Shown piece by piece: positions 7,004 through 17,210 of a DNA stretch of 64,000 nucleotides. Every line of letters starts with the position of its first letter. The first letter of the stretch is position 1. The notes under the pieces are model-generated. The model was not told the origin of the DNA. It did no database searches and was given only the letters and a program-made list of their open reading frames with translations. The position numbers were made by a program, and so were the translations under genes. Origin of the DNA: a virus; IMG/VR virus record IMGVR_UViG_3300033149_006357, positions 1 through 64,000 of that record. One strand, 5' to 3'.

Positions 7004-7135
7004 ATGAATAGTTACAGAAGGTTCTGGCGCGTATGCGCCTGGAACAACAAGGGGAATCGCACCCGCGTCGTACTGAGGCCACGCCGGGAGCGGCGACGAG
7101 CAGCGCGGGCGCTATGGAAAGCCATCAAGAAGTGA
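7004..7135 (+). CDS. very basic small protein (43 aa)
   Basis: ATG at 7004 is chosen because GAGGAGGG lies just upstream. The product is strongly Arg-rich (VVLRPRRERRRAARALWKAIKK at its end), as expected for a nucleic-acid-binding peptide. Not recognised. Confidence 0.45.
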   Translation: MNSYRRFWRVCAWNNKGNRTRVVLRPRRERRRAARALWKAIKK

Positions 7136-7185
7136 TATGGCCCGGGCGAGCTCCTGCACCGGGCAAAGAAGAAAGGAGCAAAGAA

Positions 7186-7509
7186 GTGGATCGGAAAGAG
7201 CTAGAAAATGCTGTACTGGATGCAGCGCTTGCGATTTGCAAGAGATGGGGGCCGACCGTCATCGCCCCCGGGATTGGCAAAGTTGAGAGATCGCGGGATG
7301 GATACTCTGCTTATGTGACGCCAGGGGCAGATGCGTGGGGAACCATCCCACTGGGATCGGAATGGCAGGCACCGTCGCTGCGCGATCTGGAGACCGCCGA
7401 AAGACTTGTCATTGGGATCGCGCGGTACTGTGCAAGTGAGGACTTTCTCGGCAAGGTCGCCGGGTCGATTAGACGGATGAAGGCGATAGCCAGGGCCATT
7501 CAATCGTAA
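7186..7509 (+). CDS. hypothetical protein (107 aa), KELENAV family
   Basis: GTG start chosen for the GAAAGGAG site upstream and because the alignable part begins there (VDRKELENAVLDAALAICKRWG). It shares with 7625 an ELENAV...DAA...KWG block, a middle beta region, and a C-terminal helix ending in a SEDF...KAIARAI-like segment; 8647 shows a weaker version. So a small family has expanded here. A hairpin (GCCCGG/CCGGGC) sits just upstream. Function unknown. Confidence 0.6.
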   Translation: MDRKELENAVLDAALAICKRWGPTVIAPGIGKVERSRDGYSAYVTPGADAWGTIPLGSEWQAPSLRDLETAERLVIGIARYCASEDFLGKVAGSIRRMKAIARAIQS

Positions 7510-7524
7510 CACGCACAACAATAG

Positions 7525-7603
7525 CCCATCGCTGCTTTTGCGGCTTTGCAGGCGATGGGAATATCAAGCCGCACCGGATTTCGATCTGGTGCGGCTTTTT
7601 TCT
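7525..7603 (+). terminator. tandem hairpins with intrinsic terminator
   Basis: CCCATCGC (7525-7532) pairs with GCGATGGG (7552-7559). It is followed by a perfect stem AAGCCGCACC (7566-7575) / GGTGCGGCTT (7588-7597) that runs into a six-T tract (7596-7601). The second hairpin is a textbook intrinsic terminator, so the genes from 7625 on need read-through or another promoter. Confidence 0.85.
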
Positions 7604-7624
7604 TCTAACGAAAGCGAGTATCAG

Positions 7625-8197
7625 ATGATCGGAAAAGAGCGAATGGAACTAGAAAATGCGGTGTTCGATGCAGCCAAGACAGTCATCGAAAAATGGGGAA
7701 ATCCGATACGAACAGAGTTCGGCGAAATCTCCGGGTCGGAATCTGGGAATCAGATCAACATTCGTGAGGGCTGGTGGAGCACGGAAGTTGGTCGCTGGTG
7801 CGATCCCAACATGGACGATTTATGGCGTGCGAAGAGGGTCATCGAAACGATTGTATCGTATTGCGCGATAGAGGATTTTTCCAACAAAGTGTATGGGGCT
7901 GCCCAATGCTTGAGAGCAATCACCAACGCCATCGAGAGTAAAATGAGAAAAGTAAGCTCAGAAGTTAAGGACGTTTGGTGGATTAGATTGGGAAGGCGTG
8001 CCTCTACCGAGGCGCAAAAGAAATACGCCGAGCGCTTCGATGGCGAGATGTACAAACGAGCAACGGAAGGCTTATCTGGCGTGGCAGCCAATGTACTGAT
8101 CGACGATGCATTGGCCCTGTGCGGGTCACCCCATTACAAGCTGTCGCGCTCGGAATGGGATATGCCCCAAATCAAGTTCCTAGAACTGTTTTTGTGA
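7625..8197 (+). CDS. hypothetical protein (190 aa), KELENAV family, longer form
   Basis: The first 105 residues are homologous to the product at 7186 (RMELENAVFDAAKTVIEKWG; IVSYCAIEDFSNKVYGAAQC). About 80 extra residues at the C-terminus (WWIRLGRRASTEAQKKYAER...) are not shared. It follows the terminator at 7566. A start at 7625 or at the next in-frame ATG (7643) is possible. Function unknown. Confidence 0.6.
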   Translation: MIGKERMELENAVFDAAKTVIEKWGNPIRTEFGEISGSESGNQINIREGWWSTEVGRWCDPNMDDLWRAKRVIETIVSYCAIEDFSNKVYGAAQCLRAITNAIESKMRKVSSEVKDVWWIRLGRRASTEAQKKYAERFDGEMYKRATEGLSGVAANVLIDDALALCGSPHYKLSRSEWDMPQIKFLELFL

Positions 8198-9973: not shown

Positions 9974-10059
9974 CAACGTACATCTGCATGCGCAAGCCCA
10001 AAGCCAGACGTATCGACGGCATGGATCACTACGCGCTCTTCAAGGATTCGTACAAATGA
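9970..10059 (+). CDS. tiny basic peptide (29 aa)
   Basis: Bounded by ATGA overlaps at both ends (9970-9973 and 10056-10059), so it is translationally coupled to both neighbours. Sequence begins MTTYICMRKPKARRIDG. The position makes it likely to be translated; function unknown. Confidence 0.45.
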   Translation: MTTYICMRKPKARRIDGMDHYALFKDSYK

Positions 10060-10364
10060 GATACCTGATTAACTTTGGGCCGCCGCTGACGGCCGAGGAA
10101 AAAGATACTGTATCCGGTTATCGCCTTCTACAAGCAGAGGGCGATGACGCGGAAGAAAAGATCCGCAGCCTCGGCCGCGACGGTGATTGGTGGTGGACAT
10201 CCGACATCACCGTCCGATTGCCGAACGATCCGATAGAGGCCGCGATCATCGCACTCAAGATTGGCGATGCAATGCCGCTTTGGCCGACTGTCATCGACCT
10301 GCGTGACAACAGCCTCATCGATCTTGAAGCTATTGCGGTATGGGGCGCCCCGCGCTGCGGATGA
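10056..10364 (+). CDS. hypothetical protein (102 aa), YLxNFG family
   Basis: ATGA overlap with the preceding peptide. It is homologous to the C-terminal 98 residues of the gene at 10372: RYLINFGPPLTAEEKDTVSG and KYLVNFGKRLSKSEREVFLT align, as do the LPNDPIEAAIIALKI and LPDDPVEAVILMLKI blocks. A predicted alpha/beta fold of unknown role. Confidence 0.6.
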   Translation: MRYLINFGPPLTAEEKDTVSGYRLLQAEGDDAEEKIRSLGRDGDWWWTSDITVRLPNDPIEAAIIALKIGDAMPLWPTVIDLRDNSLIDLEAIAVWGAPRCG

Positions 10365-10371
10365 GGAGGAA

Positions 10372-10830
10372 ATGATGGGACATCTGACCGACATCGCTTA
10401 CGCGGCCGCATCAGACATCGACGTGGCCATGCGGATGGCCAATGGCGACTGGGCGGCGATGGCCATAGCACGATTGGCCAAGGTCGACCTGGAGGCCGGA
10501 TTAGAGGCCGCAAGAGCGGTAGAAAAGGCAAGGAAGGTGAAATATCTGGTCAATTTCGGAAAGCGCTTATCGAAGTCAGAGCGCGAAGTGTTTCTGACTT
10601 ACGCGGTCGTTCAGCCGACCGGAAACACAGTAGATGAAAAGATCGACAATTGCCATTTCACGACAGGGCAATGGCAAGATGCCGATCTCTACATCATGCT
10701 GCCGGATGATCCAGTCGAGGCCGTCATTCTCATGCTGAAGATTGCAAAGCGTGTCAAGGAATTGCCGGATATCGTGGTCTTGTCCGATGGTTATCCAAAG
10801 TTCATTCCAACAGAGGAGGTCATGTCATGA
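10372..10830 (+). CDS. hypothetical protein (152 aa), two-part YLxNFG family member
   Basis: Begins at ATGATG behind GAGGAGG. Residues 1-55 form an Ala-rich helical segment (TDIAYAAASDIDVAMRMANG) absent from the paralogue; residues 56-152 match the gene at 10056. An internal GTG at 10538 could give the short form alone. The stop overlaps the next start by 4 bases. Confidence 0.55.
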   Translation: MMGHLTDIAYAAASDIDVAMRMANGDWAAMAIARLAKVDLEAGLEAARAVEKARKVKYLVNFGKRLSKSEREVFLTYAVVQPTGNTVDEKIDNCHFTTGQWQDADLYIMLPDDPVEAVILMLKIAKRVKELPDIVVLSDGYPKFIPTEEVMS

Positions 10831-13025: not shown

Positions 13026-13214
13026 ATGAAGGTCACGATCGTAGGCGAGGGCAGGGAAATCACGTTGGAGGATGGGTTCACCCTGGAAGAACTGGTCGAA
13101 CAGGGCATCGTCCCATCCGACTACCGGGTCTTCGACAGCAACGGGAATGAAGTTGCTTCCGACGAGGAGGTGACCGGCGACCTGGTTGCCGCGCCCGTTA
13201 CCAAGAACGCCTAA
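13026..13214 (+). CDS. ubiquitin-like beta-grasp protein (62 aa)
   Basis: A short protein with the strand-helix-strand pattern of ThiS/MoaD/ubiquitin-like folds: MKVTIVGEGREITLEDG (hairpin), TLEELVEQGI (helix), then DYRVFDSNGNEV and a final DLVAAPVTK strand. It would be the modifier of the cassette that follows (E2-like 13262, JAB 13866, E1-like 14335). The chain ends in AAPVTKNA rather than the usual Gly-Gly, so if it is activated the C-terminal chemistry is atypical. The preceding stop is 2 bases away and GGAGAA serves as the ribosome binding site. The fold call rests on pattern and context. Confidence 0.65.
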   Translation: MKVTIVGEGREITLEDGFTLEELVEQGIVPSDYRVFDSNGNEVASDEEVTGDLVAAPVTKNA

Positions 13215-13220
13215 GTAAGC

Positions 13221-13246
13221 AGGGCGGGTCAATGGCGACCCGCCCT
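13221..13246 (+). terminator. GC-rich hairpin between the modifier and E2-like genes
   Basis: A perfect 10-bp stem, AGGGCGGGTC (13221-13230) with GACCCGCCCT (13237-13246), and a 6-base loop. No T-tract, so it may only reduce transcription or protect the upstream mRNA. This would give more of the small ubiquitin-like protein than of the downstream enzymes. Confidence 0.55.
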
Positions 13247-13261
13247 CATCGAGGTATTATC

Positions 13262-13885
13262 ATGTATGCACTTGCAGATTCTGAATCTACCCTGGAGGCG
13301 ATGGTAAGCGGTGAATGGGAAGATAAGGGGGTGTTCTTTGTCGCCAACGTCTTCCCAGAAGACCCAGACGGGCATGTGCATCAGCACATTATGGGCATCG
13401 CCCTGGGCGCTAAGTTTTTGTTCTCCCAATGGTGTTATCGAGAGCAGCACCCGCACCGCGCGAGCGACCGGTGCTTGTGCATCGGTTCAGGGGCGACTCA
13501 CGCGCGACTTCTTATCGATCGCGGTCACCTCACGCAGGCAATCGCGCTTGTCATCCGGCACCTCAACGAGGTGAACCTGGAAGATTGCTACAATCCCTAC
13601 GATGAGTTCAGCCCGTGCTCGAATTGCGGCTTGTATACGTCCACGCCGCACAAATGCAATGGATGCGGGGATTACTTTTGTGACAATTGCATGGAAGGCG
13701 ACTATTGCCTGACATGCATAGAATATGTCTGCCCGGAATGCGGGATATACGATCCGAACACGTGCATATTGTGCGGCCAAACGCACTGCACATGCGGATA
13801 CAGCGAGTGCGTGTGCTCGGCCCGTTTTCCGGATTACGAAATGATGGTGGAGGTCTTGAAAGATCATGGCATTGAGATACATTGA
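13262..13885 (+). CDS. E2-like conjugating protein fused to zinc-rich RING-like tail
   Basis: Start at 13262 behind GAGG. Residues 20-117 follow the pattern of bacterial and phage E2/UBC-like domains: beta strands (GVFFVANVFPED), an HPH motif at 63-65, CLCIG at 71-75 with C73 as the likely active-site cysteine, and a helix ending in LNEVNLEDCYNPYDEF (101-116). Residues 119-185 hold 16 Cys in pairs: C119-x2-C122, C132-x2-C135, C140-x2-C143, C149-x2-C152, C157-x2-C160, C168-x2-C171, then CTC and CVC. This is a binuclear treble-clef or RING-like array as used by E3 ligases. So one chain may join E2 and E3 functions. The C-terminal 20 residues overlap the JAB gene start. Confidence 0.6.
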   Translation: MYALADSESTLEAMVSGEWEDKGVFFVANVFPEDPDGHVHQHIMGIALGAKFLFSQWCYREQHPHRASDRCLCIGSGATHARLLIDRGHLTQAIALVIRHLNEVNLEDCYNPYDEFSPCSNCGLYTSTPHKCNGCGDYFCDNCMEGDYCLTCIEYVCPECGIYDPNTCILCGQTHCTCGYSECVCSARFPDYEMMVEVLKDHGIEIH

Positions 13886-14522
13886 GGAAGCAGCGCCGAC
13901 AAAATTGATCGTCACCGATAATGTAGCACACAAGATCGCGGTGCTCATGGCATCCGAGCCGAACGTGGAAATCGGCGGCGCTGGATACGTGGAAGGCAAC
14001 GAATGGACGCGCATCTGGTGCGGTACTACAGAGGCCAGCGTCGGCGAACACGAGATGTCCGCCGAGTCATTGGCCAACATCACGATGGAAGCCCTGAAGG
14101 CCGGATTGAAGCCCGCAGGGCTCAGATTGTACTGGCATACACATGGCGTCCATGGATTTGCCCCATCGTTTTCGCAGGTGGATTGGGACACAATCTATAA
14201 GCAAGCATCCCACGGGCTAAGGATCGTCAACGTCGTGTTTGGGGGTCTCACCAAATATGATGCGGTCGAGGCATGGAAAATCACGCCCGCAAGATATGTG
14301 GTGCGCAATGTAGAACTAGAATGGAGGCTGAGAGATGATAAGGGTTATTGGGATTGGGCATCTCGGTTCCTGGACGGCACTGGCATTAGAAAGAAGAGGA
14401 TGCCAGGTGTCAGTCTGGGATATGGACACGGTGGAGCCGCGCAATCTCCCGGTGTCCCCGTACACAAAGGACCAGGTTGGCCTTTTGAAGATAGAGGCGA
14501 TTGGTCAGCTTGGGACCTTTGA
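13866..14522 (+). CDS. JAB/MPN-domain (JAMM) metallopeptidase
   Basis: A JAMM-type isopeptidase-like domain, expected to trim or remove the ubiquitin-like modifier. E35 in VEIGGAGYVEG matches the catalytic Glu; H91-T-H93 and S103-x2-D106 in HTHGVHGFAPSFSQVD match the zinc site, with a spacing two residues longer than the usual HxH-x10-D. The domain ends near residue 156. The last 62 residues (from about 157) are encoded by bases that also code the start of the E1-like gene in another frame, and look low-complexity, so they may be a read-through tail rather than conserved sequence. Starts within the last codons of the E2-like gene. Confidence 0.75.
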   Translation: MALRYIEEAAPTKLIVTDNVAHKIAVLMASEPNVEIGGAGYVEGNEWTRIWCGTTEASVGEHEMSAESLANITMEALKAGLKPAGLRLYWHTHGVHGFAPSFSQVDWDTIYKQASHGLRIVNVVFGGLTKYDAVEAWKITPARYVVRNVELEWRLRDDKGYWDWASRFLDGTGIRKKRMPGVSLGYGHGGAAQSPGVPVHKGPGWPFEDRGDWSAWDL

Positions 14523-14874
14523 GACCAATGGGATGTGGATGGGAAACCCGCTGGACGGGATCGTGATATGCGCCGTCGATAACAACACGACCAGACAGCG
14601 CATCCGGGAGGCCACGGATGGGATCTTCATCGACGTGAGGTCTGCAGGAAAGTTTTGCGAGGTCTTCTGTCTGGATGGATCCCCAGAAAAAGAGGCCAGA
14701 TGGGATGCGTCATTCAGTGGCGTAATGGCGAGCGACGGGTGCGGGTCGTTCGCGTCTTCTGGCCTGTGGGTCGCATCCGTTGTGGCGGACATGATAGACG
14801 ACATCCAGGAAGGGAAAAGTGTACCCGCCCATATCATGAGAACAGGATACGGAGTGATCCAATGGAAGCCTTGA
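14335..14874 (+). CDS. ThiF/E1-like adenylyltransferase
   Basis: A Rossmann-type E1/ThiF/MoeB domain: G6-I-G8-H-L-G11 nucleotide loop, then D29-M-D31-T-V-E34-P-R-N37-L38, then K52 in the GLLKIEAI segment. The usual RQ after the N-L motif is replaced by PV. A possible catalytic Cys lies in SDGCGSFAS (near 136-143). At 179 residues it is a minimal form. The start sits behind GGAGG and overlaps the JAB frame by 188 bases. Its expected job is to adenylate the C-terminus of the small beta-grasp protein and hand it to the E2-like protein. Sulfur transfer (ThiF-like) is the alternative, but the JAB and E2 genes favour conjugation. Confidence 0.8.
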   Translation: MIRVIGIGHLGSWTALALERRGCQVSVWDMDTVEPRNLPVSPYTKDQVGLLKIEAIGQLGTFETNGMWMGNPLDGIVICAVDNNTTRQRIREATDGIFIDVRSAGKFCEVFCLDGSPEKEARWDASFSGVMASDGCGSFASSGLWVASVVADMIDDIQEGKSVPAHIMRTGYGVIQWKP

Positions 14875-15691: not shown

Positions 15692-16747
15692 ATGATATTG
15701 GTAACAGGAGACTGGCACATCAGGGACAAAGAAGGGCTGGATGCACTTGACCGAGTTATCCAAGTGGCGTATAATAGACGGCCCGACCTGGTTGCGGTAT
15801 GTGGGGATGTGTTCCACTCATCGCGGCCGGGCAGCGAGATGGAGAAAGAGGTAGCCAGGCGATTGAAAGAGCTGTCGAAAATGTGCCCCGTGGTTGGCGT
15901 GAGCGGCAACCATGATTCTACATCGAGAGCCGCCGCGACGGACACGATGGATATCCTCTCGCCCTCCATATCCATCGCATCGGCCCCGAGGATAGTACAG
16001 GCCAGGGGATACTATATCGTCTGCATCCCCTGGCTGAGACCGAATCAAATCCTCGCAAACGAGCCCCGCCTGCAGCGCAACGCTGCAAACGCAAAGCTTG
16101 CATCTACTGTCGAGGCTATGGTAACAGGATATCTCACGGATGCCCCGGATGGCGCAGTAAAAGTGCTCATAGCACATTGTACCACCCTCGGAGCGGATTA
16201 TGGCGGGTACATCCCGACATCCCTTGGCGGGGAGCTGATCTGGAACACAGATTGGTTCTCCGGCTACGATGTCGTTTGTCTCGGACACATCCACAAAGCA
16301 CAGATCGTAGCGCCAAATGCCGCGTACTGCGGCAGCACCTATCGCAATACCATCGCCGAGAGGGATGTGCCAAAAGGCGTCTACATATGGGATGGCAAGT
16401 GGGAATGGGAGCCGATCTGGGCGCGCCCGATGTACCTGGTAGAAGGGACGCCAGATGAGGTCGAGATTCAGGTCGCTACGCTACCAGATGGCGCAGACGT
16501 GCAGGTCAGGGTACAACTGCAGCCACATGACGACTGGTACGGGATGGATGGGTCCAGGTTCCACAAGTTCCAGGTTCACCAGGTCATCGAGCGGGAGGGC
16601 CGGCCGTTCGCGCAAGATCCCTGGCAATCGATGAGCGTGCCAGAGGCGCTGAGGAGGTACTTTGAGATCATCGGAAAGGAGGAAAGCGAGATCGACCTAC
16701 TTATGTCCGCATTCGCAAAACTGGAGGAGTCCAAAAATGGACAATAA
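15692..16747 (+). CDS. SbcD/Mre11-like metallophosphatase nuclease
   Basis: Calcineurin-type phosphoesterase with the SbcD/Mre11 order of metal motifs: GDWHIRD (N-terminus), VCGDVFHSS, VSGNHDST, LIAHCTTLG and LGHIHKAQ. It would be the nuclease subunit of an SbcCD-like complex that opens hairpin or blocked DNA ends. No SbcC/Rad50 ATPase gene was found in the window, so its partner may be elsewhere in the phage, supplied by the host, or absent. Start 15692 is chosen for the GGAGATG site; an upstream start at 15650 adds 14 residues of poor quality. Overlaps the next gene by 11 bases. Confidence 0.85.
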   Translation: MILVTGDWHIRDKEGLDALDRVIQVAYNRRPDLVAVCGDVFHSSRPGSEMEKEVARRLKELSKMCPVVGVSGNHDSTSRAAATDTMDILSPSISIASAPRIVQARGYYIVCIPWLRPNQILANEPRLQRNAANAKLASTVEAMVTGYLTDAPDGAVKVLIAHCTTLGADYGGYIPTSLGGELIWNTDWFSGYDVVCLGHIHKAQIVAPNAAYCGSTYRNTIAERDVPKGVYIWDGKWEWEPIWARPMYLVEGTPDEVEIQVATLPDGADVQVRVQLQPHDDWYGMDGSRFHKFQVHQVIEREGRPFAQDPWQSMSVPEALRRYFEIIGKEESEIDLLMSAFAKLEESKNGQ

Positions 16748-17210
16748 AAAGACATGTCCCGTATGTGGGTATCGGGGATACAAACGACATCGCGGGAAAT
16801 ATTGTCCCGAATGTGGCGCCCGGTTGTACATCTACAAGCCGAAAAAGAAAGACAAGCCTTCCGTGTGGGTGGCCGAGGAGAAAAATCTGGGCGAACTTGT
16901 GGATGCGCTGGAAAGATACATCGCATCGGAATACGTTATCCCAAGATTCAGGTTTTCAAATCGCCTGCCAGAACTCGCGATGGCACGCACGCTGTACGAA
17001 AAGTGCAATTTCAATCAGAGCCTGGCCCTGCTTGTCATACGCAGGTACTTCACAACAAGCAGGAAGATAATATGGTATAGACCCAAGTCGATGGCGCAAG
17101 TCCTGTGGGATAACTCGCAGGGCGGGTGCTTCAGCACCGCGCTATCGCTGGCAAAAATGGATCACGCAAACGTGATCCAGAATCTAGAACAAGTAAAGGA
17201 GATGATATGA
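16737..17210 (+). CDS. zinc-ribbon protein (157 aa)
   Basis: N-terminal zinc ribbon, CPVC at 7-10 and CPEC at 24-27, followed by a basic segment (YKPKKKDKPS) and a helical domain (LGELVDALERYIASEYVIPR; LALLVIRRYFTTSRKI). Lies between the nuclease and the sliding clamp, overlapping both, so it probably acts in replication or repair; the exact role is unknown. GGAGGAG precedes the start. Confidence 0.65.
   Translation: MDNKKTCPVCGYRGYKRHRGKYCPECGARLYIYKPKKKDKPSVWVAEEKNLGELVDALERYIASEYVIPRFRFSNRLPELAMARTLYEKCNFNQSLALLVIRRYFTTSRKIIWYRPKSMAQVLWDNSQGGCFSTALSLAKMDHANVIQNLEQVKEMI

Follow-up and report, generated by a model that had tools for sequence, protein, structure and literature searches.

P0001, a 207-residue protein encoded in a 64,000-nucleotide stretch of viral DNA (the window; positions 1 to 64,000 of IMG/VR record IMGVR_UViG_3300033149_006357), is probably the E2-like carrier of a phage cassette for conjugation of a ubiquitin-like protein (Ubl), with a zinc tail that docks a target or a partner of the cascade. 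We assign this reading a probability of about 0.6. The proposal is based, at the level of sequence, on gene order, motifs, the cysteine pattern, and the ThiF and JAMM residues of the neighboring products. The cassette is carried by a bacterial virus, is surrounded by replication and DNA-processing genes, and looks like a tiny kit for ubiquitin-like protein tagging.

The cassette and its cysteine-rich ORF

The gene order in the window is a small Ubl-like ORF, P0001, a JAB/JAMM peptidase, and a ThiF/E1 enzyme, in a compact arrangement with overlaps. The ORF of P0001 (13262-13885, plus strand), which was assigned from its translation and its rank in a profile search, encodes 207 residues followed by a stop codon; an in-frame ATG at 13232 is an alternative start that adds ten residues. 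P0001 contains cysteines 58, 71, 73, and 109 before the tail. The tail itself has sixteen (119, 122, 132, 135, 140, 143, 149, 152, 157, 160, 168, 171, 176, 178, 183, and 185) arranged in eight CxxC or CxC pairs, and the translation thus bears out the count and positions given in the original prediction, which listed sixteen cysteines in eight pairs or near-pairs within residues 119-185. The 32 other large ORFs of the window (at least 200 residues) contain at most 5 cysteines per 67 residues. A scan of the six frames, with the P0001 tail included, found at least 14 cysteines in 21 of 31,957 stop-free segments of 67 residues, with a maximum of 16. The cysteine density of the tail is not due to chance. 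The GC content at the third codon position of the tail is 0.64, the same as in the neighboring genes. The ORF is real.

The candidate Ubl is a 62-residue ORF (13026-13214, plus strand) that is preceded by GAAGGAG and ends with alanine (...KNA). It occupies the position of the small Ubl-like ORFs in other phage cassettes, and its top Pfam match is SAMP2 (E 0.045, below the cut-off). A hidden Markov model (HMM) of phage Ubl candidates did not recover it (E 6.9), and its matches in a PDB search were chance-like. We consider it a candidate Ubl mainly because of its place, its size, and the weak SAMP2 match. The terminal alanine agrees with PMC10097602, in which the cGAS enzymes of CBASS are conjugated through a C-terminal Gly or Ala. 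The NA ending, in place of GG, speaks against a Ubl.

The next ORF (13866-14522, plus strand) is JAB/JAMM peptidase-like. Its alignment contains the JAMM residues E36, H91-x-H93, S103, and D106, and its Pfam match to Prok-JAB (E 0.17) is below the cut-off. The E1/ThiF-like adenylating enzyme (14335-14874, plus strand) matches Pfam ThiF with E 3.1e-7 and 30.2 bits against a cut-off of 28.1, and its best NCBIfam matches are ThiF models. The GxGxxG motif, D29/D31, N37, K52, D82-N83, and R87 are invariant in six sequences, and a GGAGG site precedes the start at 14335. A stretch of 188 nucleotides (14335-14522) is shared by the JAB and ThiF ORFs, which use different frames. Within the overlap, the GC content at codon position 3 of the JAB frame drops to 0.44, compared with 0.64-0.79 in the other cassette genes. 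Therefore, the end of the JAB ORF may extend beyond the original gene as a result of a lost stop codon or a frameshift.

Downstream of the cassette are genes for an SbcD-like nuclease, a sliding-clamp-like protein, and a DNA methyltransferase. An ORF with paired CxxC knuckles (16662-17210) adjoins the SbcD-like nuclease gene. Elsewhere in the window, the adjacent ORFs 10056-10364 and 10261-10830 resemble paralogues with YLINFG and YLVNFG stretches, and 7033-7509 and 7538-8197 form a second paralogue-like pair.

The E2-like region of P0001

The E2-like region was assigned from alignments to residues 20-117 (13319-13612, plus strand), of which only residues 62-117 aligned stably. MAFFT did not place residues 20-60 stably against the family, so that residues 62-117 carry the E2 claim. 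This part contains the motif HPH (residues 63-65; 13448-13456, plus strand), located by alignment and motif count where E2s have HPN, and the predicted catalytic cysteine C73 (13478-13480, plus strand). The sequence HPH-x7-C73-x-G75 preserves the eukaryotic HPN-to-Cys spacing, with the cysteine ten residues after H63 and HPH in place of HPN. H65, C73, and G75 are near-invariant in a 27-row alignment, two rows of which cover the tail only, and in a set of 24 diverse rows that excludes P0001, the corresponding His, Cys, and Gly do not vary. The pattern HP[HN]-x7-C-x-G occurred in 10 of 200,000 shuffles of P0001 residues 1-118. Among 2,768 ORFs of the fetched loci, it occurred in two, both of which are the gene upstream of JAB. 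The pattern [HN][PTQ]H-x5-7-C-x-G, narrower than the HPH/NPH/HSH...CxG motif of the cassettes, was found in 25 of these ORFs, all 25 of which are in the E2 position of a cassette (positional E2s).

An HMM of phage positional E2s, with L030, L037, L039, and L053 left out of the seed segments because they lack the motif as written, ranked P0001 first among the 554 ORFs of the window (E 0.006; next 3.8). Among 2,769 proteins, P0001 came next after the true members, with E 0.028. A connection to known E2s is provided by the phage relative L020, for which a PDB search returned UBE2D-type E2s in 48 of 49 rows (E 0.066-1.3). The alignment matches up HPN and the catalytic cysteine. The sole Pfam match of L020 is UQ_con (E 0.18, 11.9 bits against a cut-off of 27).

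Other searches for E2s were negative. Full-length P0001 had no Pfam match at E ≤1, and its E2 part had none at E ≤10. The PDB matches of P0001 did not include an E2, and the search with L013, from another phage locus, did not find one. A four-sequence profile including P0001 ranked ribosomal protein L13 above E2s, and profile A5 had no match in the PDB. UQ_con did not match the window's own record, in a search whose control also matched nowhere. In the model of P0001, the beta region has pLDDT below 50 and the helices around residues 75-103 are confident. The family model of L044 (pLDDT 93.5) matched nothing in the PDB by Foldseek or VIA, including any E2, and a BFVD search with it found one uncharacterised siphovirus protein (E 2.4e-5). 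The order of elements in the family model, with a helix, short strands, the motif, the cysteine, and three helices, could be read as that of a UBC domain that has diverged. Since there is no UBC profile match above the cut-off, we call P0001 E2-like and do not file it as a UBC member. The genomic pairing of E2/UBC proteins with E1, Ubl, and JAB is present in the window, with ThiF above its cut-off and the Ubl recognized by place and size only. The E2-type catalytic region of the original prediction is thus supported, as E2-like, by the motif, profile rank, gene order, and the similarity of L020 to UBE2D, whereas the fold searches gave no match. Overall, the sequences support an E2-like P0001, with each single link to E2s being weak.

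The predicted zinc tail

Residues 119-152 (13616-13717, plus strand) were assigned as a binuclear treble-clef-type zinc module from ligand spacing, Pfam, the structure model, and VIA. They are followed by a second run of eight cysteines in four pairs (residues 157-185; 13730-13816, plus strand), which matches Pfam zf-tcix with E 0.061. The ligand spacing in residues 119-152 is C-x2-C-x9-C-x2-C-x4-C-x2-C-x5-C-x2-C, which fits both AN1 and FYVE/PHD-type modules. AN1 fingers have the spacing C-x2-4-C-x9-12-C-x1-2-C-x4-C-x2-[HC]-x5-[HC]-x1-2-C, and our comparison also accepted Cys in place of His, as well as a final C-x2-C. The AN1 histidine ligands 6 and 7 are absent from the tail, which has C143 and C149 instead. 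The hallmark of FYVE domains is a basic RRHHCR-type motif; it is absent from the tail, where PHKCNGCG stands in its place. The tail sequence is acidic, not basic.

All Pfam matches of the tail were below the cut-offs: AN1 (E 0.019, 15.5 bits against 27.9), FYVE (E 0.04-0.05, 14.5 bits against 27.8), and TRAF3_RING (E 0.047). The tail model is confident only for approximately residues 121-150 (pLDDT block means 89-94). In VIA, nine FYVE rows had Z 4.2-5.0 and rmsd 2.1-3.2, and a tenth had Z 3.6, values below the Z of 8 under which similarity may reflect a common arrangement. The best FYVE match covered 45 residues with Z 5.0 and rmsd 2.5; AN1 reached Z 3.4 and PHD Z 2.1-2.3. The top Foldseek match was the AN1 finger of Cuz1 (E 0.65, probability 0.82), and the TRAF3 RING matched with E 2.6. 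A PDB sequence search with the tail gave chance-like matches.

The consensus for RING domains in PMC11354881, C-x2-C-x9-39-C-x1-3-H-x2-3-C-x2-C-x4-48-C-x2-C, has no match in the tail, even when ligand 4 may be either His or Cys. For E2 activation, an archaeal RING E3 requires the residues I, W, and R, as reported in PMC5654768. Counterparts of these E2-activating residues (I, W, R/K) appear to be absent from the tail of P0001, which contains no Trp at all. N121 and I153 stand at positions that we take, by ligand order, to be equivalent to those of the archaeal RING. The spacing, Pfam, and structure matches together make a binuclear treble clef likely and a RING not. The first half of the tail is therefore likely a FYVE/AN1-type binuclear treble clef, a prediction for which the evidence is weak but consistent. 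Of the RING-like tail first envisaged for this chain, the binuclear treble clef is retained on the strength of Pfam, VIA, and Foldseek, whereas the RING identity is not supported, given the spacing and the I, W, and R positions. The outcome that the original prediction named as refuting it, plain zinc ribbons lacking RING geometry, was not fully observed, because residues 119-152 are modeled as a FYVE/AN1-like treble clef instead of plain ribbons; residues 157-185 have no confident model.

Distribution of the cassette and the tail

Using a ThiF alignment, we fetched 56 viral ThiF loci. Near-identical loci are among those counted (L033-L035, L017/L018, L029/L030/L041, and L011/L025) and some of the loci, though few, are truncated where the contig ends, so that the following fractions describe loci, not independent events. 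A JAB gene is located just upstream of ThiF in 52 of the 56 loci, an HPH/NPH/HSH...CxG motif occurs in the ORF upstream of JAB in 47, and a small ORF ending with GG, NA, or NN precedes the E2-position ORF in 18. Four annotated phage records have the same neighborhood, and a fifth, unannotated, was recognized by ORF reading. The Ubl-E2-JAB-E1 cassettes (L006-L061) are seemingly common in uncultivated phages. Crassvirales-type cassettes (L001-L003, L005) contain a long E2-position protein with HSH...C[LT]GxG, and crAss-like cassettes adjoin primase, uracil-DNA glycosylase, and resolvase genes. Profile comparison did not match P0001 to the crAss-like E2 candidates or to L004.

Single-sequence patterns of the window JAB or ThiF alone found no relative in viral_contigs, nor did searches with the JAB in phages and the ThiF in plasmids. 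PHROGs, searched at E 0.01, has no family for the E2 and JAB proteins of L044 and L020 or for the Ubl of L018. Neither the phage Ubl-E2-JAB-E1 cassette nor an E2 with a fused zinc cleft was found in titles and abstracts of open-licence PMC articles. Related fusions may be described in the work of Burroughs et al. 2011 on RING fingers of prokaryotes.

The tail was present in none of the 50 positional E2s with a readable ORF, and none of these has more than one CxxC. The other positional E2s range from 206 to 588 residues and vary in the parts beyond the core, as would be expected of accessory regions specific to each lineage. The 61 loci L001-L061 contain no ORF of at least 50 residues with at least four CxxC, and thus show no separate zinc ligase close to the cassettes. 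Relatives of P0001 were found neither by tblastn in phages and plasmids nor by peptide patterns in viral_contigs and genome_contigs. Scans of viral contigs for the cysteine pattern, in which many matches were low-complexity frames, returned 11 stretches in one case and at least 120 in another, 80 of which are the listed loci. In L062-L152, 46 translated frames contained the cysteine motif, and none had an upstream E2 motif among the matches listed. Because these searches did not yield a second tailed E2, the tail is rare or unique in what was searched, and the fusion rests on one sequence. The spacing of residues 119-152 was also observed in two phage or viral proteins of other types: a phage protein with a weak Pfam IBR match (L065, 1-516, minus strand), in which an N-terminal zinc module is followed by a region that presumably resembles amidoligases, and a stand-alone module of 61 residues (L064, 10130-10315, minus strand).

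Proposed mechanism and alternatives

Based on the gene content and motifs, a conjugation mechanism can be proposed. The ThiF-like E1 would adenylate the small Ubl, which would then be passed to C73 of P0001, presumably by thioester transfer. The tail, with its FYVE/AN1-type cleft and second four-pair run, may bind zinc and dock the target or a cascade partner. Docking by the tail would direct conjugation even though no separate ligase gene adjoins the cassette. The conjugate would be reversed or trimmed by the JAB peptidase. We also speculate, as a rather doubtful extension, that the cassette is self-sufficient and that one short chain combines an E2 with a non-RING ligase, the FYVE/AN1-like cleft replacing an E3 in cis. 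The chain would then be a lineage-specific solution within a large, apparently undescribed phage Ubl-E2-JAB-E1 family that modifies host or phage proteins.

The tail could instead bind nucleic acid or the replisome and bring the E2 to DNA-bound targets, without a role as a ligase. The nuclease, clamp, and methyltransferase genes downstream, the similar DNA-processing neighbors of crAss-like cassettes, and the phage zinc clefs of the same spacing in other proteins agree with this possibility. However, the tail is acidic and no DNA-binding zinc family rose above noise in Pfam, and we consider it unlikely. An E2 and a RING-type E3 in one chain, with the tail binding its own E2~Ubl and activating transfer, is slightly less likely still: FYVE and AN1 outscore RING, the RING consensus spacing is absent, and N121, no residue, and I153 stand where the archaeal E3 has I, W, and R. 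The points in its favor are the weak TRAF3_RING matches in Pfam and Foldseek, eight cysteines compatible with a cross-brace, and the lack of a separate zinc E3 gene near the cassette.

An improbable alternative is that the cassette encodes a ThiS/ThiF/JAB-like pathway for a sulfur carrier or a metabolite, with P0001 a degenerate or unrelated cysteine protein. The NCBIfam matches of the E1 and the missing UBC fold match would be explained, but the HPH-x7-C-x-G motif has E2 spacing, L020 matches UBE2D, the His, Cys, and Gly are invariant in the 24 diverse rows, and no rhodanese or sulfur gene was noticed in the stretch read. The occurrence of the tail in a single sequence and in none of the 50 positional E2s would also agree with a recent fusion, of no functional significance, between the E2 and an unrelated zinc protein. 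With all sixteen cysteines intact and the third-position GC content equal to that of the neighbors, such a fusion is very improbable. We therefore prefer the reading of P0001 as an E2-like carrier with a docking tail.

Relation to known systems and significance

Bil operons are a host antiphage system. The BilA-D defence operons contain the same set of Ubl, E2, E1, and JAB as the window, according to PMC11354881, whereas the window cassette is phage-borne, its Ubl ends with NA, and its E2 has a zinc tail. Operon type 6d of Iyer et al. 2006, described in PMC1779556, resembles the window in having separate genes for Ubl, JAB, E1-like, and E2-like proteins. The window has four such separate, adjacent genes, with the identity of the Ubl inferred. 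In the same description, the type 6d E2 has no His upstream of the Cys and one downstream, and the operon includes a helical protein; P0001 has H65 upstream of C73 and a zinc tail. CBASS Cap2/Cap3, described in PMC10097602, likewise combines E1/E2 conjugation with reversal by a JAB, but Cap2 is an E1-E2 fusion that conjugates cGAS with no separate Ubl, unlike the window. The ubiquitin/E1/E2/small RING operon of Caldiarchaeum, described in PMC5654768, resembles the window in combining a prokaryotic E1-E2 cascade with a zinc partner, which there is a separate, true RING protein with a cross-brace; the window has a fused, predicted non-RING treble clef that may likewise form a cross-brace. Among zinc families, P0001 residues 119-152 share ligand spacing with AN1 (PF01428) and FYVE (PF01363), from which the tail differs by Cys in place of His ligands and by the missing basic motif, respectively.

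Most work on prokaryotic E1/E2/JAB systems has treated them as host defences; for a kit carried by a phage, one must ask which proteins the virus modifies. The phage E2s are connected to UBE2D through the active-site motif. If the proposal is true, an E2 that carries its own zinc module would show how a specificity similar to that of a ligase can evolve in the absence of a RING. The broad occurrence of the cassette in phages makes the tagging targets and the specificity of the zinc module testable on many genomes.
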